Both the position numbers and the translations under genes were made by a program. Shown here in pieces: positions 4,159-27,354 of a stretch of DNA of 27,354 bases. The stretch is from the IMG/VR virus record IMGVR_UViG_3300022925_000143, positions 1-27,354 of that record; one strand, given 5' to 3'. Source of the DNA: a virus. The stretch's first letter is position 1; each line of letters opens with the position of its first letter. Under the pieces are notes generated by a model. That model saw only the letters and a list, made by a program, of their open reading frames with translations, did not search any database and was not told the origin of the DNA.

Positions 4159-5328
4159 ATGGCTTCGTCTACTAGCTACGTAGGGTGGGGTAGAAATACC
4201 TGGTCATCGGGTTCCTACGGTTCACCTATGATAGAGATCTTTGTAGACGCTGTGTCTGCAACTGCAACGCTGGGCGACGAAACTGTAACTGCAGATGCTA
4301 ATGTAACTTTAAGTGGAGTATCTGCAACTACTCAGTTAGGTACAGCAACTACTGTAAGCAATAATAACTTATCTGTTACGGGTGTTAGTGCTACTGGGGC
4401 TATAGGAAATTCGACTGTTACAGTTGTTTATAACGCAGAAGTTACTGGTGTTAGTGCTACTGGGGCTGTAGGCACTCAAAGTTTAATAACTAACAACAAT
4501 ATATCTGTTACTGGGTTAGCAGGTACTACACAACTTGGCACGGAAAGTGTAAATACAGATCAAAATATTTCTGTGTCAGGTGTATCCGCTACAGGTGAAA
4601 CAGGCACAGTTGGTATTGATGTAGCTTATATAGGTTGGGGTGCAGGTCCTTGGAGTGAAGGTCCGTGGGGCACAGATACAATATTTGTTCTTGTCAACGG
4701 AGTTAGTGCAACTGCAACATTAGGTGACGAAACTGTAACTGCAAATGCTGATGTAAGTGTAACCGGTCTTGCTGGCACAACACAACTCGGCACAGCATCT
4801 GTTGAAACAGATCAAGTTATATCCGTTACAGGCGTTAGTGCTACCGGGGCTGTTGGAGACGTTGATGTTACAATTGTCTTTAGTATAGATGTTACCGGTG
4901 TTAGTGCTACTGGAGCTTCGGGCACTGTAACAACGATAACTAACAACAATATATCTGTTACTGGGTTAGCAGGCACTATGCAGTTAGGTACTGCAACTGT
5001 TACAGGTGATGCTAATATAACCGTTACTGGAGATGTAGGAACCACAGCGTTAGGCACTATATCTGTTGAAACAGATCAAGTTATATCTGTAACGGGTGTT
5101 GTTGGTACGATGGCACTTGGTACCGCTACTGTTGATGCAAAAGCTAATGTAACAGTTACAGGCGTTCTCGGTACTATGCAGTTAGGTACTGCTACTGTAG
5201 ACGCTAAGGGTAATGTTTACCCAACAGGGGTTTCTGGCACAGGCGCTGTTGGAAACGGAAGATTTACTTTAGTGTGGGGCGATATAGATACCTCACAAAC
5301 ACCAAACTGGCTACCAATAGCCGCGTAA
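4159..5328 (+). CDS. WG-header and 22-residue-repeat structural protein
   Basis: A 389-residue protein built almost wholly from repeats. Two 23-residue 'header' segments, YVGWGRNTW.. (7-29) and YIGWGAGPW.. (157-179), each introduce a run of 22-residue units of the type TGVSATGAVGT..V......V. There are six units after the first header and nine after the second (about residues 30-161 and 180-377), followed by a 12-residue tail ending NWLPIAA. Regular Gly/Thr/Val-rich repeats of this length suggest stacked beta strands (fibre or solenoid). The WG header recurs in the gp10-like protein at 13075. Preceded by AGGAG. Probably a virion surface or fibre protein; exact role unknown. Confidence 0.7.
   Translation: MASSTSYVGWGRNTWSSGSYGSPMIEIFVDAVSATATLGDETVTADANVTLSGVSATTQLGTATTVSNNNLSVTGVSATGAIGNSTVTVVYNAEVTGVSATGAVGTQSLITNNNISVTGLAGTTQLGTESVNTDQNISVSGVSATGETGTVGIDVAYIGWGAGPWSEGPWGTDTIFVLVNGVSATATLGDETVTANADVSVTGLAGTTQLGTASVETDQVISVTGVSATGAVGDVDVTIVFSIDVTGVSATGASGTVTTITNNNISVTGLAGTMQLGTATVTGDANITVTGDVGTTALGTISVETDQVISVTGVVGTMALGTATVDAKANVTVTGVLGTMQLGTATVDAKGNVYPTGVSGTGAVGNGRFTLVWGDIDTSQTPNWLPIAA
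4246..5289 (+). repeat. 15 degenerate 66-bp (22-residue) repeats in two blocks
   Basis: Block A (4246-4641) holds six units and block B (4696-5289) nine. They are separated by the second WG header (4627-4695), which overlaps the last unit of block A. Segments such as gttagtgctactgg recur at the DNA level, while other units are kept only as protein patterns, so the array is old but still partly homogenised. The first header and first repeat are echoed 450 bp downstream by the second header and seventh repeat, indicating an internal duplication of a larger module. Confidence 0.8.
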
Positions 5329-5557: not shown

Positions 5558-6715
5558 ATGCCAAGTACATATTCAGACTTGAAAATTGAGTTAATTGCTA
5601 CTGGCGAACAATCAGGAACTTGGGGTACCACAACAAATACAAACTTAGGTACTGCTCTTCAAGAGGCTATTACAGGCTCAGCTGATGTAACATTCGCAAG
5701 CGGACAAGTAACTCTAACACTAACAGATACAAACGCATCTCAGACTGCTCGTAACTTAAGACTAAATTTAACGGGTACTTCAGGTGGCGCACAAAACTTA
5801 GTTGTTCCGGCTATTGAAAAACTATATTTAGTTAATAATGGCTGTGCAGATACAATCACAGTTAAAAACTCAACTGGCACAGGTATTGGCGTTCCTGCCG
5901 GTAAATCTATGTTTGTATATAACGATGGCTCTAACGTTGTTGATGCAACAACTCATTTAAGCTCATTGACTTTAGGCACAGATTTAGCTGTAGCCGATGG
6001 TGGTACAGGTGCTTCTGATGCAGGCACTGCTAGAACTAATTTAAGTGCAGCGGCTTCAGGTGCTAACTCTGACATCACTTCTTTATCAGGTTTAACTACC
6101 CCATTATCTGTAGCACAAGGTGGTACAGGTGCTGCAACTCATACTGCAAATGCGGTATTAATTGGGGAGGGTACAGGAGCTATTACATCAGTGTCTCCAG
6201 GTACATCAGGTAATGTTTTAACGTCCAATGGTACAGATTGGACATCTGCAGCGGCAGCAGCTTTTGACTCAGGCACATTGATGTTATTCCAACAAACAGC
6301 AGCACCAACAGGCTGGACTAAATCATCAACACACAATAACAAAGCGTTACGAATAGTTTCTGGTACAGCAGGCACAGGTGGTACAGTAGCATTTACTACT
6401 GCGTTTGCTTCAAAAACACCAACAGGTAGTGTAACCATTACAAGTGTGACAGGTAGTGCTGGGGCAACAACTCTTTCAACACCTCAAATTCCATCTCACA
6501 GTCACTCATACACTAGCTACAATAATGACAACTCTCACGGCGGAAGCAAAAACGAAGGTGTTCGGAGTCCAACTGGCGCAAATACCGGTAACACAGGCGG
6601 CGGTGGTTCTCACACCCACCCATTTAGTTTTTCAACTGGTGCTGGTACATTTAGTGGTGATGCTATTGATTTAGCAGTACAATATGTAGATGTAATTATT
6701 GCTGCAAAAGATTAA
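5558..6715 (+). CDS. Tail fibre with collar-like tip domain
   Basis: A 385-residue fibre protein. The N-terminus (MPSTYSDLKIELIATGEQSG, then TWGTTTNTNLG) is a recurrent start of marine-phage tail fibres and probably the baseplate/tail attachment end. The middle is Thr/Ser/Gly-rich with two GGTGA repeats (VADGGTGASDAGTARTNLSA near 145-164 and VAQGGTGAATHTANAV near 185-200). The end has LMLFQQTAAPTGWTK, then NNKALRIVSG and a His-rich tip with SHSH (about 313-316) and SHTH (351-354), followed by DLAVQYVDVIIAAKD. This resembles the phage tail collar/short-tail-fibre tip. Likely binds the host surface as a trimer. AGGAG ribosome site upstream. Confidence 0.8.
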   Translation: MPSTYSDLKIELIATGEQSGTWGTTTNTNLGTALQEAITGSADVTFASGQVTLTLTDTNASQTARNLRLNLTGTSGGAQNLVVPAIEKLYLVNNGCADTITVKNSTGTGIGVPAGKSMFVYNDGSNVVDATTHLSSLTLGTDLAVADGGTGASDAGTARTNLSAAASGANSDITSLSGLTTPLSVAQGGTGAATHTANAVLIGEGTGAITSVSPGTSGNVLTSNGTDWTSAAAAAFDSGTLMLFQQTAAPTGWTKSSTHNNKALRIVSGTAGTGGTVAFTTAFASKTPTGSVTITSVTGSAGATTLSTPQIPSHSHSYTSYNNDNSHGGSKNEGVRSPTGANTGNTGGGGSHTHPFSFSTGAGTFSGDAIDLAVQYVDVIIAAKD

Positions 6716-6717
6716 TA

Positions 6718-7326
6718 TTGAATATTGAAGTTATAGATAATATTGTCCCTTCAAAATTGTTGTTGGAACTAAGTAAAATAAAATTTAACTATACACCAGA
6801 TAGATCAAATAATTTTGGAGTAGATAGATTTTTAACTTGTATAGAATATGGAAGCTACAATAATGTAGATAATCACGAGATAAGACGTGATAATTTTCAA
6901 CATTTAAAAGTTAAAAACATTTGGGATTGGTTTAAAAACAAGACTAACGTTAGTATAAATAATTTAGAGTCTTGTTATATAAATGCTATTTCTTTTGGAA
7001 TGGAAAGCTACATCCATACAGACGGAGTAGATATTATTACTTGTATAATTTATTTAAACTCTGACTGGCATAGTCAGTGGAGTGGTGAAACAGTATTTTA
7101 CAGCGGTAATTATACTAATAATTATAATGATATATGGTATTACACCCATGATGTTGTAAAGTCTGTTTTACCAAGGTGTAGAAGAATGGTGGTGTTTGAT
7201 GGAGAAATTCCTCATTCAGTAAGTCCATTATCTAAGAAATGTAGCGCACTAAGACAAACACTAATGTTTAAACTAAAAGATGTAGATATTAGTAGTATAA
7301 AAAAAGGATTATTAAGTGCAACTTGA
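6718..7326 (+). CDS. 2OG-Fe(II) oxygenase (prolyl-4-hydroxylase-like fold)
   Basis: A 202-residue protein using a TTG start two bases after the tail-fibre stop; no strong ribosome site, so coupling to the fibre gene is likely. Motifs of the double-stranded beta-helix dioxygenases are visible: H100-T-D102, distal H166 in DGEIPHS, and R179 in ALRQTLMFK, which would bind 2-oxoglutarate. WSGETVFYSG marks a core strand shared with the genes at 11010 and 11546. Expected chemistry is oxygen- and 2OG-dependent hydroxylation of a protein, lipid or small molecule; the substrate is unknown. Position directly behind the tail fibre makes modification of a virion protein an attractive inference. The end overlaps the next gene by 11 bases. 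Confidence 0.75.
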   Translation: MNIEVIDNIVPSKLLLELSKIKFNYTPDRSNNFGVDRFLTCIEYGSYNNVDNHEIRRDNFQHLKVKNIWDWFKNKTNVSINNLESCYINAISFGMESYIHTDGVDIITCIIYLNSDWHSQWSGETVFYSGNYTNNYNDIWYYTHDVVKSVLPRCRRMVVFDGEIPHSVSPLSKKCSALRQTLMFKLKDVDISSIKKGLLSAT

Positions 7327-7606
7327 AAAAGGGACATATTGTCCATTATTAAAAAAGAAATGTATTGGTTTAGAGTGCGCTTGGTTTACTAGAGTACAAG
7401 GATATGATGTGAATACAGGTAATCAAGTCGATGAATACCAATGTGCAATTAGTCTGCTGCCCATGCTGTTAGTAGAAAACTCTGGGCAACAAAGACAGAC
7501 TGGAGCGGCTGTAGAGTCGTTTAGAAATGAGATGGTCAAAGCTAATGAGAATAGTGTAAAATTATTAGCAGAAACCGCCAAAAAAAATTTACTAGGAGAC
7601 AAATAA
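7316..7606 (+). CDS. Conserved four-cysteine phage protein
   Basis: A 96-residue protein with a GTG start inside the end of the oxygenase gene. Four cysteines (C9, C16, C21, C43) are spread over YCPLLKKKCIGLECAWF and EYQCAISLLPMLL. The second half is helical with QRQTGAAVESFRNEMVKANE. I recall this motif ('CPL...C...CAW... CA....PMLL......RQTGAA.ESFRNE') in many marine phages near tail-fibre genes, with no function assigned. Four conserved cysteines could hold zinc or an Fe-S cluster, which would be notable beside several iron enzymes; that is inference only. Confidence 0.65.
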   Translation: MQLEKGTYCPLLKKKCIGLECAWFTRVQGYDVNTGNQVDEYQCAISLLPMLLVENSGQQRQTGAAVESFRNEMVKANENSVKLLAETAKKNLLGDK

Positions 7607-7607
7607 A

Positions 7608-8552
7608 ATGGCACACATAACAATTGTTACAGATGATAATGCTGTATACAAAAATCAAGGATGTTATTTAAATTTAGATTTATCTGCTTGTGGCATTCCT
7701 GAAAATGTACACGCATTACAATGGGATGGGGTAAATGGAGAAATAGAATATCGGGGTGATGTCCCAAATGAAGCTATAACATCTTTACCAGATTGGGTAG
7801 CTTCAGCTTTAGTTAAATGGGATGAAGCAGCAGCTGCCGAAGAATTAGCTAGTCAACAGCCAGCTATTACTGAGCAAGACAAAATAGATGCCGCTAATAG
7901 AGGAAAAGATTATGTTGATGAAGATTTTTGGGGTCAATATCCTGAAGCTAATTTAGATAGTGTAAATAAACTTCTTAATACAAAAATTGATGGTATTACA
8001 TTAGGCAAAGCTCATAAAAACTTATTAAAGTCTGGTAAATTATATGGTGTCTCAGTACAGTCTGTAACTTATGGATCATTAGGTTTAACAGGACTACAAA
8101 CGGTTTATGATTTAAGTAAAAAATATGGAGTTGCATCTTTTTCAGACAGAATGTATATGCCTACACAGGGCTTGCTTGACTATTTAACACAGACAGGTTG
8201 GAATATTTATACTGGTACTGACCATGAGGGAGACTATTGGATTGCTTATGTTACTTGGGAAGGTGAACTTATTTCTAATAAAGCTAAAGAAGATATTAAT
8301 TCTGCTAGAAACGAAACAATTAATCAAGGTTATAATGATGGAACTCATGTGTGGGATATTGATGCACAAAGTATGACTAACATGACATCAAGAGCATCAG
8401 TTGTTCAAGATACTGATTCGGTAGTGTGGAGAACAAAAGATAATAATAATATTACAATGACTGGCGCAGAATTTAAAACATTATTTGCTGGCTGTGTTGC
8501 TGCAGTAGATGCAATTTATCAAGGCGCTTGGACACAGAAAGATAATGTTTAA
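7608..8552 (+). CDS. Tail-fibre assembly-like protein with DUF4376 end
   Basis: A 314-residue protein. The N-terminus (HITIVTDDNAVYKNQGCYLN, then LSACGIPENVHALQWDGVNG with EIEY) resembles tail-fibre assembly proteins. The C-terminal part (about 260-310) has VVWRTKDNNNITMTGAEFK and LFAGCVAAVDAIYQGAWTQK, the DUF4376 pattern. Between them (about 90-215) is an extra segment with YVDEDFWGQYPE and a KIDGITLGKAHKNLLKSG helix that I do not recognise. Probably a chaperone or small tail component partnered with the fibre at 5558. ATG one base after the preceding stop; TAATG overlap into the desaturase gene. Confidence 0.65.
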   Translation: MAHITIVTDDNAVYKNQGCYLNLDLSACGIPENVHALQWDGVNGEIEYRGDVPNEAITSLPDWVASALVKWDEAAAAEELASQQPAITEQDKIDAANRGKDYVDEDFWGQYPEANLDSVNKLLNTKIDGITLGKAHKNLLKSGKLYGVSVQSVTYGSLGLTGLQTVYDLSKKYGVASFSDRMYMPTQGLLDYLTQTGWNIYTGTDHEGDYWIAYVTWEGELISNKAKEDINSARNETINQGYNDGTHVWDIDAQSMTNMTSRASVVQDTDSVVWRTKDNNNITMTGAEFKTLFAGCVAAVDAIYQGAWTQKDNV

Positions 8553-9328
8553 TGTTCAACTTCTGGAAACAAAACAGATATAGAATATTATTAGCAATAA
8601 TTTACATTGTAGGAATTGCCTCTTTCTTTTTAGGTGCTAGTATTTGGTGGTTTGTAAGTGCTTTATTATGGAATAAAATAATAGAACTAATAGGCCACAG
8701 TATAGGCATGCACAGATACTTTACTCACAAATCTTTTCAAACTACCCCATTTAAAGAAAAAGTAATAGCTTGGTTTAGTGTATTACTTGGTGTAGGAAGT
8801 CCTATAGCATACGTAAGAAATCATAGGCATCACCATGAAGTAACCGACCAAGAACGAGACGTTCATTCTCCGCATCAACACAATGTATTTAAAATAGCAC
8901 TAGGATTATGGGAGTTTTCAAGCATTAAGTATTTAGTACAACAAGGTGGAACAACTCCTCGTGATTGGATAAGTAATAAAGTAGTAAGATACATCCACGA
9001 CAACTATTATAAAATATGGGGAATTCTTACTATAATCACTCTATGTATTGATTGGAAGGTTACTGTTTATCTATTATATTTGCCCGCTTTTATTTATCAT
9101 TTACAGTTAGGTATCTTTATTAATTGGATAGGCCACACTTATGGTAATAGAAACTTTGAAACTAAAGATAAAAGCCGAAACAACAATTGGGTTCATTGGT
9201 GGTTATTAGGAGAAGGATTACACAATAATCATCACGCACAGCCTTGGCGGTACAATTGGAAAATAAAAAACACTGACGCTTTTGATGTTTCAGGATGGAC
9301 AATAGATAAGTTTTTTAAACACGGATAA
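8552..9328 (+). CDS. Membrane fatty acid desaturase (delta-9 / SCD-like)
   Basis: A 258-residue integral membrane di-iron desaturase. All histidine boxes are present: H49-SIGM-H54 with RYFTH59 (box 1), N90-H91-RH-H94-H95 (box 2) and H224-NN-H227-H228 (box 3), plus the extra H195 in NWIGHTYGNR typical of acyl-CoA/acyl-lipid delta-9 desaturases. Hydrophobic segments lie near 10-35, 68-88 and 155-192. The expected reaction is oxygen-dependent insertion of a cis double bond in a fatty acyl chain, drawing electrons from ferredoxin or cytochrome b5. Length is near the bacterial norm. It is an auxiliary metabolic gene inside the late operon. Start by TAATG overlap; overlaps the next start by one base. 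Intact and likely functional; the exact acyl substrate cannot be read. Confidence 0.9.
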   Translation: MFNFWKQNRYRILLAIIYIVGIASFFLGASIWWFVSALLWNKIIELIGHSIGMHRYFTHKSFQTTPFKEKVIAWFSVLLGVGSPIAYVRNHRHHHEVTDQERDVHSPHQHNVFKIALGLWEFSSIKYLVQQGGTTPRDWISNKVVRYIHDNYYKIWGILTIITLCIDWKVTVYLLYLPAFIYHLQLGIFINWIGHTYGNRNFETKDKSRNNNWVHWWLLGEGLHNNHHAQPWRYNWKIKNTDAFDVSGWTIDKFFKHG

Positions 9329-9885
9329 TGAATAATAAACTTAAACAAGATTATTATGTTTTTGTTGATAATTTTATTACGCCAAACAGAGCAGTTAGCT
9401 TATATAACAATTTCAAACAAGAAGTAAATAAATACCCGCAAGCATTTGTAAAAGATCCTCAATGTCCCTCTTCTTTTTCTGTATACAACTATAAACCCTT
9501 TTTAATTTTGTTATGCGAACAAACAAATTTTATGACAGAATTTATGGGGGAGCCTATGTTGCCATCATATTCATATGCACGTTTGTATCAAAAAAATGAA
9601 GTTTTAAAAAAACATAAAGATCGCCCTTCTTGTGAAATTAGTGTTTCATTACATCTAAACGGAGATAGTCCGTGGGATATATGGTTTACAAAACCGAACG
9701 GGGAAAAAATATCCTACAATTTAAAACCAGGACAAGCTGTTATTTATCAAGGTATGCTTTCAGAACATGGGCGTGACGTTTATCAAGGCAATAACTATGG
9801 GCAAGTGTTTCTTCACTACGTAAGAGCTGAAGGAGAACATTGGGAACATTTTTTTGATAGAATAAATAATGGATGCTCTAGATAA
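9328..9885 (+). CDS. 2OG-Fe(II) oxygenase, HKD type
   Basis: A 185-residue protein starting in the TAATG overlap after the desaturase. It contains YARLYQKNEVLKKHKDRPSC (H96-K-D98), CEISVSLHLNGDSPWDIWF, and LKPGQAVIYQGMLSEHGRDV (distal H147), then GQVFLHYVRAEG. This is a 2-oxoglutarate/iron dioxygenase arrangement that I recall in cyanophages and other marine phages ('HKDRPSCEIS... HGR... QVFLHY'). The 2OG-binding basic residue is probably R166 or nearby, farther from the distal His than in the P4H type. Substrate unknown. It overlaps the next gene by 17 bases. Confidence 0.75.
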   Translation: MNNKLKQDYYVFVDNFITPNRAVSLYNNFKQEVNKYPQAFVKDPQCPSSFSVYNYKPFLILLCEQTNFMTEFMGEPMLPSYSYARLYQKNEVLKKHKDRPSCEISVSLHLNGDSPWDIWFTKPNGEKISYNLKPGQAVIYQGMLSEHGRDVYQGNNYGQVFLHYVRAEGEHWEHFFDRINNGCSR

Positions 9886-10423
9886 ATACATAATTGTTTT
9901 AAAAAATATAGTTTCTTTTGAATTATGTAATGATATATTAAATGAATATTGTAGTTCTAATGAATGGCAACACACAGAAACTGGAAGTGGACTTGATAAA
10001 ACTGTTAGAAATTGTGACACTATACAAATTTCACAACCTTGGGTTATTAAAGAATCTAAAAAAAGATTTAATATTGATAAAGAATTATTTAAGTGTGCAA
10101 CGAAATGTATTGAAGAGTATAATAGAAAGTTTAAATATTCTAGAGTGCATGAAGATACTGGATACGAATTGTTAAGATATAAAAAACAACAGTTTTATAT
10201 TGAGCATACTGACTCATTTATACAGGCACCTAGATTAATTAGCTGTTCATTTCACTTAAACGATAATTATGAAGGTGGGGAGTTTGCGTTTTTTAATAGA
10301 GAACTAAAATATAAATTAAATAAAGGAGATGTTTTGATGTTTCCATCTACTTTTATGTACCCTCATGAAATCATGCCTGTTACAAAAGGCGAAAGGTATT
10401 CAATTATTACATGGTTCAGGTAA
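9869..10423 (+). CDS. 2OG-Fe(II) oxygenase, prolyl-4-hydroxylase type
   Basis: A 184-residue protein, ATG inside the end of the previous gene. The core reads YELLRYKKQQFYIEHTDSF (H113-T-D115), SCSFHLNDNYEGGEFAFF, KGDVLMFPSTFMYPHEIMP (H166) and VTKGERYSIITWF (R176). HxD, distal His and an Arg ten residues later form the complete P4H/PKHD-type metal and 2OG site. Predicted to hydroxylate a proline, lysine or other residue on a protein or peptide, or a small molecule; sequence alone does not decide. It overlaps the next gene by 13 bases and belongs to the translationally coupled oxygenase run. Confidence 0.8.
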   Translation: MDALDKYIIVLKNIVSFELCNDILNEYCSSNEWQHTETGSGLDKTVRNCDTIQISQPWVIKESKKRFNIDKELFKCATKCIEEYNRKFKYSRVHEDTGYELLRYKKQQFYIEHTDSFIQAPRLISCSFHLNDNYEGGEFAFFNRELKYKLNKGDVLMFPSTFMYPHEIMPVTKGERYSIITWFR

Positions 10424-11013
10424 ATAATATTCCTAATTTTATTGAAGTTTATAATGTGTATTCTAAAGATATTTGTGAAACACTAATACACTATTTTAAT
10501 GAATCGGAAAAGGCAGGTTTAGCCATAAATAGAAGGACAGAAACCGCCGATAAATTAACAAGAGATGATAATGCATGTTATCTAACGCCTATTGAAGTAA
10601 ATGCAAGATTTTTACCTAATGATATGACCAATGGCCAGCTAGTTAATAAAGTTAAAGATATTTTTTGGCAACAAGCTTATGTTAAATATGCTGAAAAATA
10701 TGACATATTAAAACAGTGCCATGAATTATTTATATTTACTTTAAAACTGCAAAAAACAATGCCAGGAGAAGGCTATCATGTATGGCATGCTGAAGCCATG
10801 AATCGGTTCGTAAACTCAAGAATATTAGTGTATACAGTATATTTAAATGATGACTTTGAAGCTGGAGAAACAGAATTTTTATATCAACAATATAGGTATG
10901 TTCCTAAACAAGGAGATGTAGTAATATTTCCTGGAGCTTTTACACACGTTCATAGAGGTAATCCGCCTATAGGCAATAGTAAATATATTTTAACTGGGTG
11001 GCTTGAGTTTTGA
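10411..11013 (+). CDS. 2OG-Fe(II) oxygenase, HxE variant
   Basis: A 200-residue protein starting at ATG 10411 inside the previous gene. Core motifs: GEGYHVWHAEAMNR (H126-A-E128), YTVYLNDDFEAGETEF, GDVVIFPGAFTHVHRGNPP (H179 and H181) and SKYILTGWLEF (K191). Glutamate replaces the usual aspartate of HxD, and a lysine takes the 2OG-binding role, ten residues after H181. HxE variants with 'WHxE' and 'THxHRGNPP' are, to my knowledge, a recognised phage/bacterial subgroup, so activity is plausible. Substrate unknown. It shares 'GETEF' strand features with its neighbours but differs enough to have a separate origin. It overlaps the next gene by four bases. Confidence 0.75.
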   Translation: MVQVNNIPNFIEVYNVYSKDICETLIHYFNESEKAGLAINRRTETADKLTRDDNACYLTPIEVNARFLPNDMTNGQLVNKVKDIFWQQAYVKYAEKYDILKQCHELFIFTLKLQKTMPGEGYHVWHAEAMNRFVNSRILVYTVYLNDDFEAGETEFLYQQYRYVPKQGDVVIFPGAFTHVHRGNPPIGNSKYILTGWLEF

Positions 11014-11549
11014 TAACTAAAAAAATTGATAACAAAGAGTTACACATTGAAGATAATTTTTTTGATTGGTCTTTTCATAATTGGCTGTATTCTTACGTGG
11101 CACAATTAAATAACTATGCAATAGGATTTGGTGACACTGATGTATTTGATAGAGCAGCACATCAATATATGACAGCTGATTTCGCAGTTCAACATTTAGA
11201 AGAAACTAACTTATTTGAACATATTTATAAAACTGAATTTGCAGATAAAATAAAAAATAGACAGTTAGTTAAAGCCACTATTAATACGACTACACCTGGT
11301 CAGGCTAACTTTCCTCACGCACATCATAATATGATGGTATTGTTATATTATATAAACTTAGATTGGAAACCAGAATGGGCTGGAGAAACCGTATTTTATA
11401 ATAACTCTATAGATGATATTGGATTTATGTCTATATATAAACCAAATAGAGGTATTTTATTTGATGGTGATTTACCCCACTCTATTAGGTGCCAATCTAA
11501 TATTGGGCCTACATATAGATTTAGTTTGTCTATGTTTTTTATTAAATGA
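11010..11549 (+). CDS. 2OG-Fe(II) oxygenase paralogue A, HAH in place of HxD
   Basis: A 179-residue protein with a TTG start overlapping the previous TGA. It aligns without gaps over its core to the next gene: KTEFADKIKNRQLVKATIN, ANFPH, NLDW then PEWAGETVFYN, SIYKPNRGILFDG, distal LPH157 and R170. At the iron site it reads FPH103-A-H105-H106, where the sister has FPH102-C-D104. The acidic iron ligand is therefore replaced by histidine. It may bind metal as an all-His site, use another acid, or have lost hydroxylase activity. The rest of the fold is intact and the frame is open, which argues against simple decay. Confidence 0.7.
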   Translation: MITKKIDNKELHIEDNFFDWSFHNWLYSYVAQLNNYAIGFGDTDVFDRAAHQYMTADFAVQHLEETNLFEHIYKTEFADKIKNRQLVKATINTTTPGQANFPHAHHNMMVLLYYINLDWKPEWAGETVFYNNSIDDIGFMSIYKPNRGILFDGDLPHSIRCQSNIGPTYRFSLSMFFIK

Positions 11550-11808
11550 TACATCACACTATAAACAACAAAGATTTATTTATTGCAGATAATTTTTTTC
11601 CAAAAGAATATCATGAACGGTTTTATATGTATTGTTCAAAACTGCCTTATCGTATTGGATATCCAGATACAGTAGCATATGAAAGATTAGCACACCAGTA
11701 CTATCACACTTCACTAGAAGTAAATGAACTACAAGAAATAGATCTTTTTAATTATCTATATAAAACTGAATTTGCAGATAAAATAAAAAATAGACAGTTA
11801 GTTAAAGC
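11226..11808 (+). repeat. 50-bp identical direct repeat in tandem oxygenase paralogues
   Basis: Bases 11226-11275 and 11759-11808 are identical over 50 positions by my reading. They are the same in-frame segment of the two paralogues (encoding YKTEFADKIKNRQLVKA), 533 bases apart. Similarity continues more weakly on both sides, then drops sharply at the iron-binding motif. This shows recent duplication or gene conversion of the conserved part while the active-site stretch diverged. Confidence 0.85.
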
Positions 11809-12082
11809 TACTATTAATTCGTCTACAGCGAGTCAAGCTAATTTTCCTCATTGTGACTGTGATTCTTTTACAATGATATACTATATGAACTTAGACTGGA
11901 AACCTGAATGGGCTGGGGAAACTGTATTTTTTAATGAAAATACAACAGAAATAGAGCTTGCCTCTATATATAAACCAAACCGAGCCATATTATTTGATGG
12001 GCATATACCTCATCAGCTTCGACCACAATCTATTTTATCACCTAATTTTAGGTTTAGTTTGGCCATGTTTTTTGAAAAATAA
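11546..12082 (+). CDS. 2OG-Fe(II) oxygenase paralogue B
   Basis: A 178-residue protein, ATG in an ATGA overlap with paralogue A. Complete site: FPH102-C-D104, HIPH156 and R169, with NLDW then PEWAGETVFF and SIYKPNRAILFDG as core strands. It is a close tandem duplicate of the preceding gene, with a 50-base identical DNA stretch shared, and more distantly related to the oxygenase at 6718 (W.GETVFY, DG.IPH). Likely an active 2-oxoglutarate-dependent hydroxylase of unknown substrate. It is the last gene of the oxygenase run; a 43-base gap with a TATAAT separates it from the holin. Confidence 0.75.
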   Translation: MIHHTINNKDLFIADNFFPKEYHERFYMYCSKLPYRIGYPDTVAYERLAHQYYHTSLEVNELQEIDLFNYLYKTEFADKIKNRQLVKATINSSTASQANFPHCDCDSFTMIYYMNLDWKPEWAGETVFFNENTTEIELASIYKPNRAILFDGHIPHQLRPQSILSPNFRFSLAMFFEK

Positions 12083-12125: not shown

Positions 12126-12611
12126 ATGTTATCAATATTATCAGCAATACTAGGCTTTGCAACATCAGGACTGCCTAGTGTCTTAGACTTTTTCAAACAA
12201 AAAGGCGATCAAAAACATGAACGCGAAATGGCACAAATTGAAATGCAAAGAGCTATGGAAATGGCTAAAGCAGGATATGCCTCGCAAGAAAGAATCGAAG
12301 AACTTAGAACAGACCAAGTTGAAATGCAAACTTACGCGGAAGAAAGAGCAGCGCTTTATAAGCATGATGAAAAACTCTCGGAAGGCGCGGCTGGTTGGGT
12401 TCTTACTCTCCGTGCTAGTGTTCGCCCCATTGTCACCTATATTTTTCTTTTTCTTCTACTATTTGTTGATATTACAGGAATGATATGGGCTATGAAATCA
12501 GGTGCTCATTTTGCAGAAGCGATGGATATAGTATTTAGTGACGAAGAGATGGCTATTGTAGCCTCTATTATTGGCTTCTGGTTTGGAAGCAGAACTTGGG
12601 AAAAGAAATAA
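12126..12611 (+). CDS. Holin (3-TM, gene-transfer-agent type)
   Basis: A 161-residue protein. It has an N-terminal hydrophobic helix (MLSILSAILGFATSGLPSVL), a long charged helical section with many Glu/Lys/Met (about 28-85), then LRASVRPIVTYIFLFLLLFV and ITGMIWAM (TM, about 98-123). A last hydrophobic segment AIVASIIGFWFG precedes a basic end, SRTWEKK. 'RPIVTY' followed by a TM and a final 'GFWFGSRT.EK' is the pattern of the 3-TM holin family known from gene transfer agents. It would form the membrane lesions that let the endolysin out. The ribosome site is weak (GGGG at 12115-12118). Ten bases separate its stop (12611) from the lysozyme start, forming a lysis pair. Confidence 0.8.
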   Translation: MLSILSAILGFATSGLPSVLDFFKQKGDQKHEREMAQIEMQRAMEMAKAGYASQERIEELRTDQVEMQTYAEERAALYKHDEKLSEGAAGWVLTLRASVRPIVTYIFLFLLLFVDITGMIWAMKSGAHFAEAMDIVFSDEEMAIVASIIGFWFGSRTWEKK

Positions 12612-12620
12612 GGATGACTC

Positions 12621-13073
12621 ATGAAAACATCGGAGGAAGGGATTGCCCTTATTAAAACATTTGAAGGCGTGGTTAAAAAACCTTATAAATGTCCTGCTGG
12701 ATACTGGACTGTGGGCGTTGGTCATCTTATCACTCGTTCTCCTGAGCTCCCTAGTGATTGGAATAGGACAATGGGAAATGATGAAATCGACGATTTATTA
12801 CGAAAGGATTTATTAAAGTTTGAAAATGGAGTACTTCGTTTGTTACATCCTGTGCAACCAAGTCAATCTGAGTTTGATGCTCTTGTCAGCTTTAGCTTTA
12901 ATCTTGGTTTGGGGACATTTCAGCGATCGACGGTGCGGTCAGCTTTTAAGCGTGGTGATAAAAAGAGGGCTGGAGAAGTTCTTTTAAAATACCGTAGAGC
13001 TGGTGGTCGCATACTAAAAGGTCTAGTTAGACGAAGATTTGCAGAACATGCATTATTAATGCGGAATAAATAA
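12621..13073 (+). CDS. Endolysin, GH24 T4/P22-type lysozyme
   Basis: A 150-residue muramidase. FEG (E15), then YKCPAGYWTVGVGH gives the E15-C24-T30 set with the 9 and 6 residue spacing of T4 lysozyme E11-D20-T26; Cys for Asp is frequent in phage lysozymes of the 'CPAG.WT.GYGH' kind. Further GH24 features: PSQSEFDALVSFSFNLG, TFQRSTV and a C-terminal GLVRRRFAEHALL. Hydrolyses the beta-1,4 bond between MurNAc and GlcNAc. There is no signal peptide, so it depends on the upstream holin. ATG preceded by AAGGATGACTC. High confidence in family and role. Confidence 0.92.
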   Translation: MKTSEEGIALIKTFEGVVKKPYKCPAGYWTVGVGHLITRSPELPSDWNRTMGNDEIDDLLRKDLLKFENGVLRLLHPVQPSQSEFDALVSFSFNLGLGTFQRSTVRSAFKRGDKKRAGEVLLKYRRAGGRILKGLVRRRFAEHALLMRNK

Positions 13074-21578: not shown

Positions 21579-24500
21579 ATGCCTTTTGACCCAAACAAAC
21601 CATTTGAAGTCATAAAGACTTACAAACAACCTCAAACAGGGTTTGACCCAAACAAACCGTTCACAGTAATAAAAGACTTTCAACAACCTCAACAACCTCA
21701 ACAACCCAAAGTACTTAAAGAAGGTGAAGGCAGCGACTTTGCTCGTGGCTTTGGTACATACTTTGACCAGTATGGCGGTATTTTAGGCGGCGCAAAAGTA
21801 TTAACAGGTAAAGCTATAGGTGATGACGAACTTGTAATGAGTGGTGTCGCAGATATGCAAGAGTCTGAAGCTAAAGTAGGTGCTCGTGGTGTAAAAGAAA
21901 CTGACGAATTTACCAAAGCTTGGGATAAAGGAATTAGCGAAGTACTTACAGAATTCCTGCCTTATATTGCGGGTCAAGGTGTAGGTATGATTGGTGAGGC
22001 TTTTATCACTTCTATTGCAGGAGGTATGATTGGTAGTGCTGTTGCACCAGGAGCGGGTACAGGAACTGGACTATTAACAGGATTTGTTGGTAAAGAGCTA
22101 GTTAAAAAAGGAATTATAGAAGCTGCTAAAGAAATGTCTGAAGTAGAAGCTCAGAAATATATAAGAAATGAAACGGCTAAACTTATACAATCCGAGGCCG
22201 GTAAACAAGCAATTAAAAATATTTATAAGAAAGCTGGTAGCAACATAGCTCTTACTGGTATGGCTGCTAAATTTGGCGCAGGTGAAGTTACAGGTAGAGC
22301 AGTTGATGAAGCTATTAAAGATATTGATGATCCTGAATTACAACTAGAAAAAATTAAAGAGCTTAGCACAGGTAAGCTAGCTACATTAAGTACTGCTCAT
22401 GCATTGGCTAACTTTATTAGCCTTAAAATTGGTCTTGGGTCTTTAGAAAAACTTGCAGCACCTACACAAAGCATGTTGCTTAATATAGCTAAAAATATAG
22501 GTATTACAGGTATTAAAGAAGCTCCTGTTGAAGCTATTCAATCTGGTATAGAGAGGTATGGTGCTGACTTACCACTTACTGATAGAGCAGCATTAGAAGA
22601 ATATATTAATGCCGCGGCTGCTGGTTTTGCAATGCCTATCATACCTGCTACTATTGGTGGTATAAGAACAACTACATCACCTACAACATCATCACCTGAA
22701 GGATCAACTGTAGATCCAGAGCCAGAATCAAAAGGCCCAGAGCCATCGGGACCGAAACAACCTAGTGATAGAAAAGGTTGGAATTTTGATGACAAAGAAG
22801 TAGAAAGACGTGATAATATAATAAAAGACCAAGAAATAATTAATTTAAATGAAGACCTAGTTGATGTTGATTTAGATGATGCAGATACTAGACCTAAACT
22901 CTTACAAGCTCCTGAAGAAAGTCCCGAAGACTATAAATTACCTCCAATCCAAGAAATAGAAAGAAAAATCAAGGAGAAAGCAGATGCTCAGCGACCTAGC
23001 CAACTTGACGACGAACCAGATAGAGGAAGCATTTCAATACCTCAATCTGAGTCTACTAAATCCAGAAAACAATTATCCCCTACCAAAGAGCTTGGAACAG
23101 TTGTCAGAAGCACAGTGGATAGCAATACAAGTGATGCTGGCGCAGCTGATGGACGAGAGGGAAAACCACTCAGTTCACTAAGTAGAATACCTGAAGAAGG
23201 GTTTGAAAGAATTCAAGTAGGTACGCAAGATATAATTACAGGCTATGATAAAGATGGTCAGCCTATTACTCAACAAGAAAAATTATTTGTTGATCGCCCT
23301 ATAAAAAATTTCCAACAAGAAGTTAATAAACAATTAAATCTACCTCTTGGTCAAACAGACGAACTTGCATTATACAAAAATCAAATAGAATCTTATATAA
23401 ACAAACGTCAATACCGAAATCAGCTAGGCGAAATAATAAGTGAATATGATAACGTTGGTATGCCTTATGCCGTTACACAAGAAGGCTTAGCTGAAGCAGA
23501 ATCAATCTATACAAGCATACTAAATTCAGAAGGTAAAGCTGCAGCGGATAGATATATACAGAACAAACGTGAGACTGATCCTTTATTTAATAAAACTAAG
23601 ATTGATACAGAGTCTGCTACTACAGAGACAGAAGGTATACTACCTATATATGCAACAAACAATTTAGAAAATGCTCAAGCTTATCTAGTAAAAAACAATT
23701 TAACTGACCACTATATTAATCCAGAAGAAGATGTTGCTGGTAGGACTCTTGCATATTCTGTAAGACCTAAAGTACTTCTTCCTAATACTCGCCCTATTAC
23801 AGTAGCTGATTTTTTAATTAGAGATAAAGGTAAGAACTTAAATAAAACATCTAATCCACTTAAATTCTCTACAACACCTAATGAAAGCGTAGTAAAAAAC
23901 ATACTGCAAACTAAGTTAGATACAGCTCAATTTAATCAGTTAAATGCTAACCCTAAAGTATTCAAGACTATCGCTAATGAGTTTGCTCAACGAAGCTCCG
24001 ACCAAGACGCAGGCTCAACTCCTTCACAAGAAATAAATACTCGTAAAGCTCGTGAATTAGAATTTGATGTAAGGTCAGAAACATTACCTGGTTTCCAAGA
24101 ATTTATGAAGCGTATGGCTTTAATGGGTATCAAAGAGTTACCAAGCTTCTTAAAGGCAGGAGCTGTATTTGGTTCAGCAAAAGCACCAATACAAGGGGCA
24201 TTCTCAGTAGATGAAGTTATAGAAAATGCGTTAGGAGATTATATCTTTGAAGAAGCCGCAGACTCACAATCTAAAGTAAAAGATTTTGGTTCAGGACAGA
24301 ACGTAGGCCCAGCTGACAAGGCTAGACGTAAAGCATTACGAGATGAGTTTATTAATTCACCTATCATACAAGAATACTATTTAAATAGAAAAGGTAGTAG
24401 ATATAACAGCCTAGAAGAAATACAAAAAGATATTAATAACTACAAAAATTATTTTGATACAGGCACTGAATACAATGACGGTAGAGAAATAATAAATGAA

Positions 24501-27354
24501 ATAGAAGATGCAGAGATCAAAGCATTAGCTCAAGCTGTACGAGACCAACAAGATAAAGCAGCTATAAAACGAGTTAAAAATAAAATAGCTGACCAAATAA
24601 AAGCTAAGTCTGACAAGTATAAAAAAGCAATTAAAAAAGAAGAAATAGATCTAGAAGATATACAAATAGATGAAGACATAGAGATAGCTATAGATGAGAT
24701 AATGGACTTACCAGCTCAAATAAACCCATTTGATGAAATGGTACAAAACTCTGATGACATACAAGGTGATTTACTTGAGATGTTAGACGATAGGTCAGAA
24801 GTTAATAGACTTATAGAGCAGTATAAAAATGACCCTATAGCTCTCTTAAATGATTTAGGTGAGAGACTTACAAGACAAGCAGAAGTAAATGCAGAACTAG
24901 GTGATACAAGAAAAGCATCTTACAGAGCTCAGCAAGCAGAGTTAATAAACCAAATTTTAAAAATACCTGGTATAGATAAAGTATCAGTAGTAAACGCTGA
25001 TCCTAAGACTATAAAAGGATATTTAGATGAGTTTGCAGATGCAGCGGGTAGACCTAGACCTAGATCTAGATCATCAGGTTTTTATACACCTGTTCAAAAC
25101 GTAAGACCAAGTCAGTCAGGTTTATCAAAAGCAATTAAAATAAAAGGTGCTGAATTTAAAGATGTTATTGTGATAGACGACACAATGTCCAGTGGCCAAG
25201 CATTAAAAACATTGTTACATGAATTTGCTCATGTCGGTACGGTAAATGCAATTCAGTTTGATATGTTAACTAATGTTGAGTTTGACGAATTAATAAATTT
25301 GTTTAATAAAGCTAAACGATATGCAAGACAACAAAGCAGAGGTAAAGTAGTAGGGCAAGACTATGAATATAATGATTATGGTTTTAGTAATATAAAAGAA
25401 TTTATTGCAGAAGCATTTTCTAATGCAGAGTTCCAACAGTTTTTAGCAAGTATTCCATCAGATTCTAATCTACCTAGCGAAACAGGGTTCTTTAGGTCAT
25501 TGTTTGATGACTTTATAAGTTTTATTTCTACTACACTTGGTCTAGAAAATATTGATAATACAGTATTAAAAGATACAATTCAGTTGTCAGCTCGTGCATT
25601 TCAAATAGGTACGCTACCACTAAAACTTGACAAGAACAGAACTAAATCTTGGTATAGAAAACAAGACTTCCGTAAAAAAATGGATGAAATTAAAGAAATA
25701 GAAGATGCTGAAGAACTAGGAGAGATTACTCCTGCAAGAGCTAGATATAGAAAATTAGTCAATAAAATTAAATACCCTGATTTTGCTGTTGATCCAATGG
25801 CTGATGAAAAACCACGTGAAAGACGTAATGTGGATATTATTAAATTTCCTAAACCTACTAAACACGATAGATCATTTAATGAACAAGTACGTGATAATAC
25901 TGAATTGTTTGAAAGAGAAGAAAGTACTTTCGGCAAAAGACTTAAAAATAGTTTCTTTAATGAAAAAGATGGCTTCTTTAAAAACGGGGATAAGCTTTTA
26001 ACAACTGCAATTAGAAATTATGCAAACCGTTCTATTGATATTAAGAAAGCTCAAGATAACTTAGAGCGTTCAGGTTTATTGTTAGTTGGTGTTGATGGAT
26101 TTAATAATGTATTTGACCAGCTAACTAGAGCGTTTGGTTTATCAGATTACTACATGAAAAAAATGCAGCCAGCATTTGATGCCTACTCAAGAGCTTTAGG
26201 TAATTATGTAGAGTTACAAAAACAAAACGGTATGTCTGAAGCAGAAGCTAAAGGGCTATTAAAAACTCTGTTCACAGGTATGCATGAATCTGAACGTAGA
26301 GAAATAAAATTCTTATTAGATGTTCCTTTGAGTAATGAGCAAATTATACGACGTAGAGATGGCACTGCAACAAGTCCTGCTGCTTTACGTGAAGATATAA
26401 TGAAACAAATCACTACTAAAGTATGGAAAGATAGTGAACAAAAGAAAAATGATTTACAAAAATATAAAGAGCAACTACGTAGATTAGCAAACGCTGAAAC
26501 TAAAGTATCAGGTAAAAACACAGTAGATTCTGTTGCAGGCACAAGTTACTTTAGCCCTGAGAAAAAAGGCGGCCCAGTAGATATTACAAGTAATAGATAT
26601 GATGTATCTGACATGAGTGCAACTCAAGCATCTATAGCTCAAAGTCAGTTAGCTAATCTTAAATATACTGACCCAGATGTATATCAAAGTATCACACAGC
26701 TTAGAGAAGCTATGACTCAACTCAATAAAGATACATTAGAATTGAATTCTGAAGCTAACTATGCTAGCCCACAAGCTATGAACGTTATTGAATTTTATGG
26801 CTGGGAAAATTATATACCTCTAAAACGTAGACAGCTTGATGCAGAAGAATCTTTCTACAATCCAACAGGTGGTAGGATGTCTAGAGAACTTAAGAAATTA
26901 GAAAGCTCATTTGAAGGTAATCAAGGCGAATCAGAAGACCCATTTACTCAAACTATTGTAGATGCATCAAGAGCTGCAGCACGAGCTGGAAGAATTAACT
27001 ACACACAATCTGTATATAATGCAGTTACACAAACAGTTAAATACAAAGACCGTACAACAGGAAAAGAAGTAAAAGGTAAAGCTATTGATGGTAAAGTCTT
27101 AAATACATATACTTACGAAGATCGTTATAGAAATAATCCAGAGTTACAAAAAGATTTAGCGAAGAAGAATACAGTATTACATTTCTTAGATGATGGAAGT
27201 ATTGCAGTTATAGAAATAAAAAATGATAATCTATTACAAGCTATACGAGGAGCATATGCAGAAAATCCTCAATGGGTAGCATTTTTAAATAGAATAACAG
27301 GGGGCTTAGGGCAATTACATACTAGATTTAACCCTCCATTTGCAACCTTAAACT
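21579..27354 (+). CDS. Giant polyvalent-type ejection protein, partial at 3' end
   Basis: An open frame of at least 1925 codons with no stop before the window end; start ATG 21579 with AAGGA upstream. The first 45 residues contain a duplicated FDPNKPF.VIK motif and a QQP run. Hydrophobic Gly/Ala-rich segments lie near 125-165 (LPYIAGQGVGMIGEAFITSI, GGMIGSAVAPGAG). Further on, H1214-E-F-A-H1218 with E1274-F-I-A-E1278-AF downstream matches a zinc metallopeptidase seen in large polyvalent phage proteins. The end (about 1740-1925) has GWENYIPLKRR and NPPFATLN, reminiscent of the LPD38 associated domain. Likely packaged in the head and ejected, where it may cut or remodel host targets. The LPD label is from memory. 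Confidence 0.7.
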   Translation, partial: MPFDPNKPFEVIKTYKQPQTGFDPNKPFTVIKDFQQPQQPQQPKVLKEGEGSDFARGFGTYFDQYGGILGGAKVLTGKAIGDDELVMSGVADMQESEAKVGARGVKETDEFTKAWDKGISEVLTEFLPYIAGQGVGMIGEAFITSIAGGMIGSAVAPGAGTGTGLLTGFVGKELVKKGIIEAAKEMSEVEAQKYIRNETAKLIQSEAGKQAIKNIYKKAGSNIALTGMAAKFGAGEVTGRAVDEAIKDIDDPELQLEKIKELSTGKLATLSTAHALANFISLKIGLGSLEKLAAPTQSMLLNIAKNIGITGIKEAPVEAIQSGIERYGADLPLTDRAALEEYINAAAAGFAMPIIPATIGGIRTTTSPTTSSPEGSTVDPEPESKGPEPSGPKQPSDRKGWNFDDKEVERRDNIIKDQEIINLNEDLVDVDLDDADTRPKLLQAPEESPEDYKLPPIQEIERKIKEKADAQRPSQLDDEPDRGSISIPQSESTKSRKQLSPTKELGTVVRSTVDSNTSDAGAADGREGKPLSSLSRIPEEGFERIQVGTQDIITGYDKDGQPITQQEKLFVDRPIKNFQQEVNKQLNLPLGQTDELALYKNQIESYINKRQYRNQLGEIISEYDNVGMPYAVTQEGLAEAESIYTSILNSEGKAAADRYIQNKRETDPLFNKTKIDTESATTETEGILPIYATNNLENAQAYLVKNNLTDHYINPEEDVAGRTLAYSVRPKVLLPNTRPITVADFLIRDKGKNLNKTSNPLKFSTTPNESVVKNILQTKLDTAQFNQLNANPKVFKTIANEFAQRSSDQDAGSTPSQEINTRKARELEFDVRSETLPGFQEFMKRMALMGIKELPSFLKAGAVFGSAKAPIQGAFSVDEVIENALGDYIFEEAADSQSKVKDFGSGQNVGPADKARRKALRDEFINSPIIQEYYLNRKGSRYNSLEEIQKDINNYKNYFDTGTEYNDGREIINEIEDAEIKALAQAVRDQQDKAAIKRVKNKIADQIKAKSDKYKKAIKKEEIDLEDIQIDEDIEIAIDEIMDLPAQINPFDEMVQNSDDIQGDLLEMLDDRSEVNRLIEQYKNDPIALLNDLGERLTRQAEVNAELGDTRKASYRAQQAELINQILKIPGIDKVSVVNADPKTIKGYLDEFADAAGRPRPRSRSSGFYTPVQNVRPSQSGLSKAIKIKGAEFKDVIVIDDTMSSGQALKTLLHEFAHVGTVNAIQFDMLTNVEFDELINLFNKAKRYARQQSRGKVVGQDYEYNDYGFSNIKEFIAEAFSNAEFQQFLASIPSDSNLPSETGFFRSLFDDFISFISTTLGLENIDNTVLKDTIQLSARAFQIGTLPLKLDKNRTKSWYRKQDFRKKMDEIKEIEDAEELGEITPARARYRKLVNKIKYPDFAVDPMADEKPRERRNVDIIKFPKPTKHDRSFNEQVRDNTELFEREESTFGKRLKNSFFNEKDGFFKNGDKLLTTAIRNYANRSIDIKKAQDNLERSGLLLVGVDGFNNVFDQLTRAFGLSDYYMKKMQPAFDAYSRALGNYVELQKQNGMSEAEAKGLLKTLFTGMHESERREIKFLLDVPLSNEQIIRRRDGTATSPAALREDIMKQITTKVWKDSEQKKNDLQKYKEQLRRLANAETKVSGKNTVDSVAGTSYFSPEKKGGPVDITSNRYDVSDMSATQASIAQSQLANLKYTDPDVYQSITQLREAMTQLNKDTLELNSEANYASPQAMNVIEFYGWENYIPLKRRQLDAEESFYNPTGGRMSRELKKLESSFEGNQGESEDPFTQTIVDASRAAARAGRINYTQSVYNAVTQTVKYKDRTTGKEVKGKAIDGKVLNTYTYEDRYRNNPELQKDLAKKNTVLHFLDDGSIAVIEIKNDNLLQAIRGAYAENPQWVAFLNRITGGLGQLHTRFNPPFATLN
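21585..21674 (+). repeat. Duplicated FDPNKPF.VIK motif
   Basis: Bases 21585-21617 and 21642-21674 encode the same 11-residue pattern FDPNKPF(E/T)VIK at the very start of the giant gene. The spacing is 57 bases (19 residues), and a QQPQQPQQP stretch follows. I recall 'FDP..PFEV' repeats at the N-terminus of similar giant phage proteins, where they may act as a packaging or docking signal (inference). Confidence 0.7.
22984..23181 (+). CDS. Nested 65-residue gene inside giant ORF, other frame
   Basis: An ORF in the +1 frame relative to the giant gene. A textbook AAGGAG (22971-22976) lies seven bases before its ATG. The product is 65 residues and looks like a genuine helical protein: LANLTTNQIEEAFQYLNLSL, PLPKSLEQLSEAQWIAIQVM, then LAQLMDERENHSVH. 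I recall short stand-alone phage proteins with this pattern ('L..QI..AF.YLNLSLL', 'L..LS...W......L..L..E...S.LH'). Over the same bases the giant frame reads as low-complexity Ser/Arg/Pro/Gly sequence, and local GC is higher (about 45% by hand count). Together these suggest a real overprinted gene. Function unknown. Confidence 0.6.
   Translation: MLSDLANLTTNQIEEAFQYLNLSLLNPENNYPLPKSLEQLSEAQWIAIQVMLAQLMDERENHSVH

Follow-up and report, generated by a model that had tools for sequence, protein, structure and literature searches.

An island of iron-oxygenase-fold genes with exchangeable contents between the tail and lysis genes of a large phage group

Introduction

Of the accessory genes that ocean phages carry, those for oxygenases of the 2-oxoglutarate (2OG) type are some of the most frequent. 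Batteries of such genes have already been published for the HTVC023P-type pelagiphages, which carry as a group eight distinct, non-orthologous 2OG genes (PMC9599517), and for cyanophages, several 2OG genes being carried by cyanomyoviruses (PMC3037559). Seasonality of 2OG genes with 'ferrochelatase' partners has been reported for coastal viruses (PMC11561400), and phage 2OG proteins have been reported to resemble human EGLN3 (PMC12774648). A viral prolyl 4-hydroxylase (P4H), together with hydroxyproline in viral proteins, is on record for the Chlorella virus PBCV-1, to judge from the citation of Eriksson 1999 in PMC9301287. Here we analyse IMG/VR virus record IMGVR_UViG_3300022925_000143, the 27,354 bases of which are called the window below, and in it an island of six genes of iron-oxygenase type and one fatty-acid desaturase gene (genes are named by their first position). 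An earlier note on this DNA had held a battery of this size between tail-fibre assembly and lysis genes to be unusual, a view that has to be corrected, since batteries are not rare in aquatic phages: pelagiphages, Mosig, S-PM2, S-RIM32 and S-SCSM1 all have sets of these genes, and the commonest number in the fully covered islands compared below is three.

The described systems resemble the window to different extents. Like it, the HTVC023P-type pelagiphages are podoviruses with a related p10-type protein, have several non-orthologous 2OG genes per group and a 'ferrochelatase' gene adjoining an oxygenase gene, this 'ferrochelatase' belonging to a family for which an oxygenase fold is predicted below. 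Unlike in the window, their 2OG genes are described as near one another but not adjacent, and the word 'desaturase' is absent from the paper (PMC9599517). In HTVC027P, the same kinds of genes (gp72-74) adjoin a tail-collar gene. Pelagibacter phage Mosig EXVC030M (gp55-60 and gp80) shares with the window an unbroken series of six oxygenase-family genes next to tail fibres, plus a fatty-acid desaturase, but it is a T4-like myovirus of 141 kb and its desaturase, 27% identical, lies about 16 kb off in another cluster. That cluster (L005 16702-28001) is biosynthetic-looking, with genes for Asp/Arg hydroxylases, a TauD-like dioxygenase, a nitroreductase, molybdenum-cofactor-type enzymes and an aminotransferase. 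The cyanomyoviruses S-PM2, S-RIM32, Sf-CH3 and S-SCSM1 likewise have members of the same families adjoining tail-fibre genes, as runs of oxygenase genes in S-PM2, S-RIM32 and S-SCSM1, and in S-PM2 two of the oxygenases flank a tail assembly chaperone; unlike the window, these stretches are without an annotated desaturase and have replication-type genes (e.g. helicase) nearby, not lysis genes.

Results

The earlier note had listed six oxygenase-like genes in the window, and all six were recovered, four by Pfam and two (9328 and 11010) by AlphaFold models. As to the enzyme class, we are nearly certain: the six encode the double-stranded beta-helix iron-oxygenase fold of the prolyl/lysyl-hydroxylase type. 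The fear that most of them might lack the beta-helix and the iron site was not borne out by profiles and structure predictions. Together with the desaturase, the genes are as follows.

6718-7326, + strand: 2OG-Fe(II) oxygenase with a TTG start, apart from the main run (PF13640, 1.1e-7; phrog_274, 3.9e-14)
8552-9328, + strand: membrane fatty-acid desaturase of lineage C with three His boxes (PF00487, 7.2e-12; acyl-CoA desaturase 1 profile, 1.3e-14)
9328-9885, + strand: oxygenase-fold protein of a family labelled 'ferrochelatase' (phrog_2954, 1.7e-54; AlphaFold model)
9869-10423, + strand: 2OG-Fe(II) oxygenase, P4H/PKHD-like, HTD...H...R (PF13640, 8e-17; bacterial prolyl 4-hydroxylase, 5e-4)
10411-11013, + strand: 2OG-Fe(II) oxygenase, HAE...H...K (PF13640, 1.1e-9; phrog_61, 2e-40)
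11010-11549, + strand: oxygenase-fold protein with a TTG start, HAH replacing HxD (phrog_274, 8e-13; AlphaFold model)
11546-12082, + strand: 2OG-Fe(II) oxygenase, HCD...H...R, paralog of the adjacent 11010 (PF13640, 3.2e-6)

For 6718, 9869, 10411 and 11546, the Pfam family 2OG-FeII_Oxy_3 (PF13640) passes its gathering score, and iron ligands and 2OG anchor are in place (HTD and R in 6718 and 9869, HAE and K in 10411, HCD and R in 11546, with the distal His in all four). The sequence relatives of these clear members that have solved structures are mostly protein hydroxylases: P4H, EGLN, OGFOD1 and procollagen lysyl hydroxylase. Among phages, 10411 is 38-44% identical to its counterparts in the best-listed cyanophages and 42% in HTVC027P. 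Prolyl 4-hydroxylases (Pseudomonas P4H 4j25, PHD2 and bacterial P4H 3itq) share with the window proteins the fold, the iron site and a compact single domain; however, identity in the fold matches is 8-18%, 11010 is without the acidic iron ligand and 9328 is without the usual 2OG anchor. Two other matches were set aside. The NCBIfam 'FlmC family' scores far under its cut-off for 6718, 11010 and 11546 (62-80 versus 240 bits), and no literature on an FlmC oxygenase was found; marginal matches of 9869 to spike glycoprotein (E 0.02 or worse) were judged to be due to chance.

The place of these genes was compared among relatives with the ortholog of 7316, a gene conserved in the upstream flank, as anchor: 80 loci were kept of 201 relatives, and 83 distinct loci were compared. 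The island was taken as the stretch from the DUF4376 tail gene to the lysis genes, and 37 of the 83 loci are covered as far as the lysis or p10 genes. To call oxygenases, we used iterated profiles derived from the window genes, together with three additional clusters assessed by motif, and the counts carry that judgement; moreover, the 83 loci are mutually related and the counts are not independent events. At least one oxygenase was present in 36 of the 37 covered islands and most have at least two, in agreement with the expectation that related phages would keep several together. The number per island was 0 in 1 locus, 1 in 2 loci, 2 in 7, 3 in 14, 4 in 10, 5 in 2 and 6 in the window, which is thus the largest of the set. 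Dozens of other contigs have homologs at this position, which puts the oxygenase battery far beyond chance; judged by gene order and content, such tail-to-lysis islands are a conserved, content-swapping feature of a large phage group. The contents differ from island to island and also include cupin-like proteins, one family of which, of 149 amino acids, is restricted to islands with a desaturase (16 of 22), as well as a likely methyltransferase and a likely acetyltransferase, these last two being named by sequence inspection alone. Examples of the methyltransferase, the acetyltransferase and two cupin-like families lie at L057 5788-6501, L008 2678-3100, L072 2772-3218 and L071 3023-3445. The slot between the tail gene and 7316, filled by 6718 in the window, is occupied by an oxygenase in several relatives, and the family of the tail gene itself (5558) is found upstream of the anchor in related loci.

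The flanks of the island, which the earlier note had rightly described as tail genes on one side and lysis genes on the other, are the following.

5558-6715, + strand: tail-collar/tail-fibre type protein, upstream flank (phrog tail fibre matches)
7316-7606, + strand: Cys-containing protein of 96 amino acids, function unknown, synteny anchor (conserved; 75% identical in L002)
7608-8552, + strand: DUF4376-domain tail-fibre type protein, final gene before the island (PF14301, 1.4e-13; phrog tail matches)
12126-12611, + strand: small membrane protein, possibly holin-like, downstream flank (phrog_6637, function unknown; kept before the lysozyme in relatives)
12621-13073, + strand: phage lysozyme (endolysin), downstream flank (PF00959, 6.5e-33)

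Every gene from 5558 rightward through 12621 is on the + strand. Five oxygenase genes follow the desaturase in a row, with overlaps along 8552-9328-9869-10411-11010-11546 of 1, 17, 13, 4 and 4 bases, the very range given before; 6718 begins 2 bases past the tail gene 5558, and its end shares 11 bases with 7316. Because the genes of the run overlap, we infer that they would be expressed together. Promoter-like sites in the window were at chance level in a promoter scan (36 found versus 35.7 expected). The G+C content is 0.28-0.33 in the oxygenase and desaturase genes (8552-12082) versus 0.40-0.43 in 5558 and the lysis genes, which suits an imported origin of the island genes. Further downstream, the long protein of 13075 has p10-type phage relatives at about 30-34% identity, including those of Pelagibacter phages HTVC027P and HTVC023P. 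Elsewhere in the window, 4159-5328 encodes a protein of 389 amino acids made of repeated 'TGVSATGAVGT'-like units, without PHROG match, a possible adhesin; and 21579-27353 is a very large reading frame of at least 1,925 amino acids that continues past the window end, the tested part being without clear family.

Two of the families represented among the six oxygenase-fold proteins bear database labels that suggest quite other functions. No Pfam match was obtained for 9328 and a PDB profile search found no sequence relative, hence the need for structure prediction. The AlphaFold model, made from 45 relatives, has a mean predicted local distance difference test score (pLDDT) of 94.6; its best solved fold matches are the Pseudomonas prolyl hydroxylase 4j25_E (Z 17.3, 164 residues, 2.7 A), PHD2 and SnoN, and all 50 top matches are 2OG/Fe oxygenases. 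The residues H96, D98 and H147, which would form the HxD...H iron triad, are invariant in 45 of 45 aligned relatives. Equally invariant are Gln159 and His163, at the position where an Arg or Lys usually anchors 2OG, and for this reason the use of 2OG as co-substrate is uncertain; R99 and R149 are possible alternative anchors. In Pfam, the ferrochelatase families gave no match for 9328 (E<=1) nor for five other phage members (E<=0.5). We conclude from the model and the conserved residues that the phage 'ferrochelatase' family in all probability carries an oxygenase fold and iron site, and that databases appear to mislabel phrog_2954; its reading as the haem enzyme is without profile support, the top fold matches all being oxygenases. 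We found no paper in the open literature correcting the label.

The 9328 type keeps close company with other oxygenases. It occurs 59 times among the compared loci, with an oxygenase neighbour in 57; in cyanophage S-SCSM1 it is naturally fused to a C-terminal 2OG-FeII_Oxy_3 domain (1.3e-14), and the first half of phrog_3531 matches 9328 and the second half 9869. A search of viral contigs with the 9328 sequence alone found only the near-identical L003, synteny around 7316 being far more productive.

The second label is that of phrog_274, DNA endonuclease V / pyrimidine dimer glycosylase, and it concerns 6718, 11010 and 11546. These three, and the S-PM2 and S-RIM32 proteins called 'endonuclease V', match PF13640 and not Pyr_excise, the match being above cut-off for S-PM2 and S-RIM32 and under the gathering score for 11010 (0.0054). 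The S-SM1 denV and the Mosig member of phrog_274 had no Pfam match at all. The endonuclease label is therefore unsupported wherever Pfam gives a match and, by their profiles, some phage proteins named 'DNA endonuclease V' are oxygenases as well, a point that is new here. The label is one of the reasons for which modification or repair of nucleic acids might be considered as the task of the island; others are the presence of AlkB among the fold matches of 9328 and of Dam or replication genes next to some relatives. But the label fails for the S-PM2 and S-RIM32 members, the top fold matches of 9328 by Z are prolyl hydroxylases and the window genes are grouped with tail and lysis genes, so that we regard such a task as highly improbable.

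The protein of 11010 has 57% identity with that of the adjacent 11546; modelled by AlphaFold (pLDDT 93.0), it has the PHD/P4H prolyl hydroxylases as fold matches. It departs from the 2-His-1-carboxylate iron triad, the acidic ligand being replaced (HAH, versus HCD in 11546). HxH replaces HxD/E in 26 of 48 aligned members of the 6718/11010/11546 family, the distal His and the Arg being kept. This HxH subfamily, new here, may bind iron by three histidines or differ in its activity; since HAH stands where HxD is expected, the use of 2OG by 11010 is uncertain. The claim that the six oxygenases and the desaturase would all use iron and oxygen is fair overall, with the reservation that 2OG use is doubtful for 9328 and 11010.

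The desaturase 8552 has the full set of histidine boxes formerly ascribed to it (H49xxxxH54, H91RHHH95 and H224NNHH228) and, by its sequence, is a complete di-iron desaturase. Cyanophages are said to carry lipid desaturases, described by Roitman et al.; like these, the window enzyme is a fatty-acid desaturase carried by a phage, but it is placed within an oxygenase island. No isolate phage except Mosig matched it at 1e-5, and a single scan of genome contigs gave one weak cellular relative, from Devosia (27% identity). Among the 83 loci, 22 have a desaturase, immediately after the DUF4376 gene; the phage desaturases fall into four lineages, 31-47% identical, with the His boxes in all of them in the alignment. 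An acyl carrier protein is encoded in 17 of these 22 loci versus 0 of the 61 others (Fisher p ~1e-13, a value inflated by relatedness). The carriers match PF00550 (2.5e-14 and 2.8e-14), have the DSL serine in 19 of 19 copies and form two lineages, 35% identical, one accompanying desaturase A1, the other placed between A2 and B, a pattern in favour of pairing on more than one occasion. This desaturase-carrier link in relatives is new here and gives a hint that the genes concerned act on acyl groups; no paper reporting a desaturase-carrier-oxygenase island was found in the open literature.

It could be that a fatty acyl group, attached to a carrier protein or contained in a lipid, is modified step by step by the desaturase and part of the oxygenases, and is finally built into lipid of the host envelope, into a glycan or into a protein of the virion. 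The tie of each carrier lineage to a different desaturase arrangement speaks for this, as does the fact that lineage-C desaturases adjoin similar-looking putative sugar acyltransferases in five other viral contigs, three of which were tested (L085, L088 and L089) and all match Pfam Hexapep and bacterial hexapeptide transferases. Nevertheless, no carrier was found with the window desaturase or with any other of lineage C, no acyl-carrier-like motif is present in any reading frame of the window, and the sequences of the clear 2OG members are like those of protein hydroxylases. Furthermore, 61 of the 83 loci have no desaturase, and the oxygenases are therefore independent of it. Sequential tailoring of an acyl chain consequently seems to us unlikely. 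The lineage-C and hexapeptide genes lie at L085 9240-13155, L086 9229-12926, L087 9231-13190, L088 7580-9110 and L089 9977-11510, and some of these contigs add a radical SAM, a carbamoyltransferase or a second desaturase-like gene.

Discussion

What could the oxygenases of the island do? One proposal, made for the 2OG genes of cyanomyoviruses (PMC3037559), is that infection is aided when 2OG or host metabolites are turned over, through host metabolism or 2OG signalling; the classing of such genes among the auxiliary metabolic genes, for pelagiphages (PMC9599517) and for seasonal viruses (PMC11561400), goes in the same direction. An array of six distinct enzymes between tail and lysis genes fits bulk removal of 2OG poorly, however, and so diverse a set of sequences suggests specific substrates, so that we consider this role rather improbable for the window.

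We tentatively favour, while giving it somewhat less than even chances, the hydroxylation of tail-fibre proteins by the oxygenases, with a separate acyl function for the desaturase. The fold and iron ligands, the relatives that are protein hydroxylases, the recurrence of oxygenases by the tail genes in 36 of the 37 covered islands, the adjacency to tail-fibre genes across phages of other backbones (HTVC027P, Mosig, S-PM2, S-RIM32, Sf-CH3 and S-SCSM1) and the PBCV-1 precedent are the reasons for this preference. The island would be transcribed late along with the tail genes, and the oxygenases would hydroxylate side chains on freshly synthesised tail-fibre proteins or other adhesins, which might stabilise these proteins or alter their binding. 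The protein of 9328 and the following oxygenase could act as a pair, since genes of the two kinds lie next to each other with hardly an exception and, in some cyanophages, form a single fused gene. Differing island contents would give differing modification patterns, and this would explain the free swapping of the gene set at one place. The desaturase would work separately on acyl chains of a host lipid or carrier protein. Of all these steps, the tail-protein substrate is the uncertain one that sets our overall confidence.

Several observations weigh against tail-protein hydroxylation. Adjacency to tail genes is not exclusive, since Mosig has further oxygenases among replication genes and the 9328 relative of Syn30 adjoins Dam and clamp-loader genes. 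By eye, no collagen-like Gly-X-Pro run was seen in the tail genes of the window. Lastly, the place of the island may be a tolerated insertion site and no sign of function.

A combination of both lines of thought can also be imagined, in which the island is a late, swappable module: the desaturase would act on a carrier-bound acyl chain, the oxygenases, including the putative three-histidine-site enzymes, would then hydroxylate it, and the product would decorate tail fibres or the host surface. We deem this joint reading quite improbable; if true, phages would encode, in this module, a previously undescribed pathway for modifying proteins after translation or the envelope. For the phage 'ferrochelatase', papers that take it as a matter of haem or iron metabolism (among them PMC9599517, and PMC11561400 for phrog_2954) rest on a family with a predicted oxygenase fold and iron site. 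As to the hydroxylation of tail proteins, the fixed place of the island by the tail genes, with swapped contents, makes virion modification a testable question.

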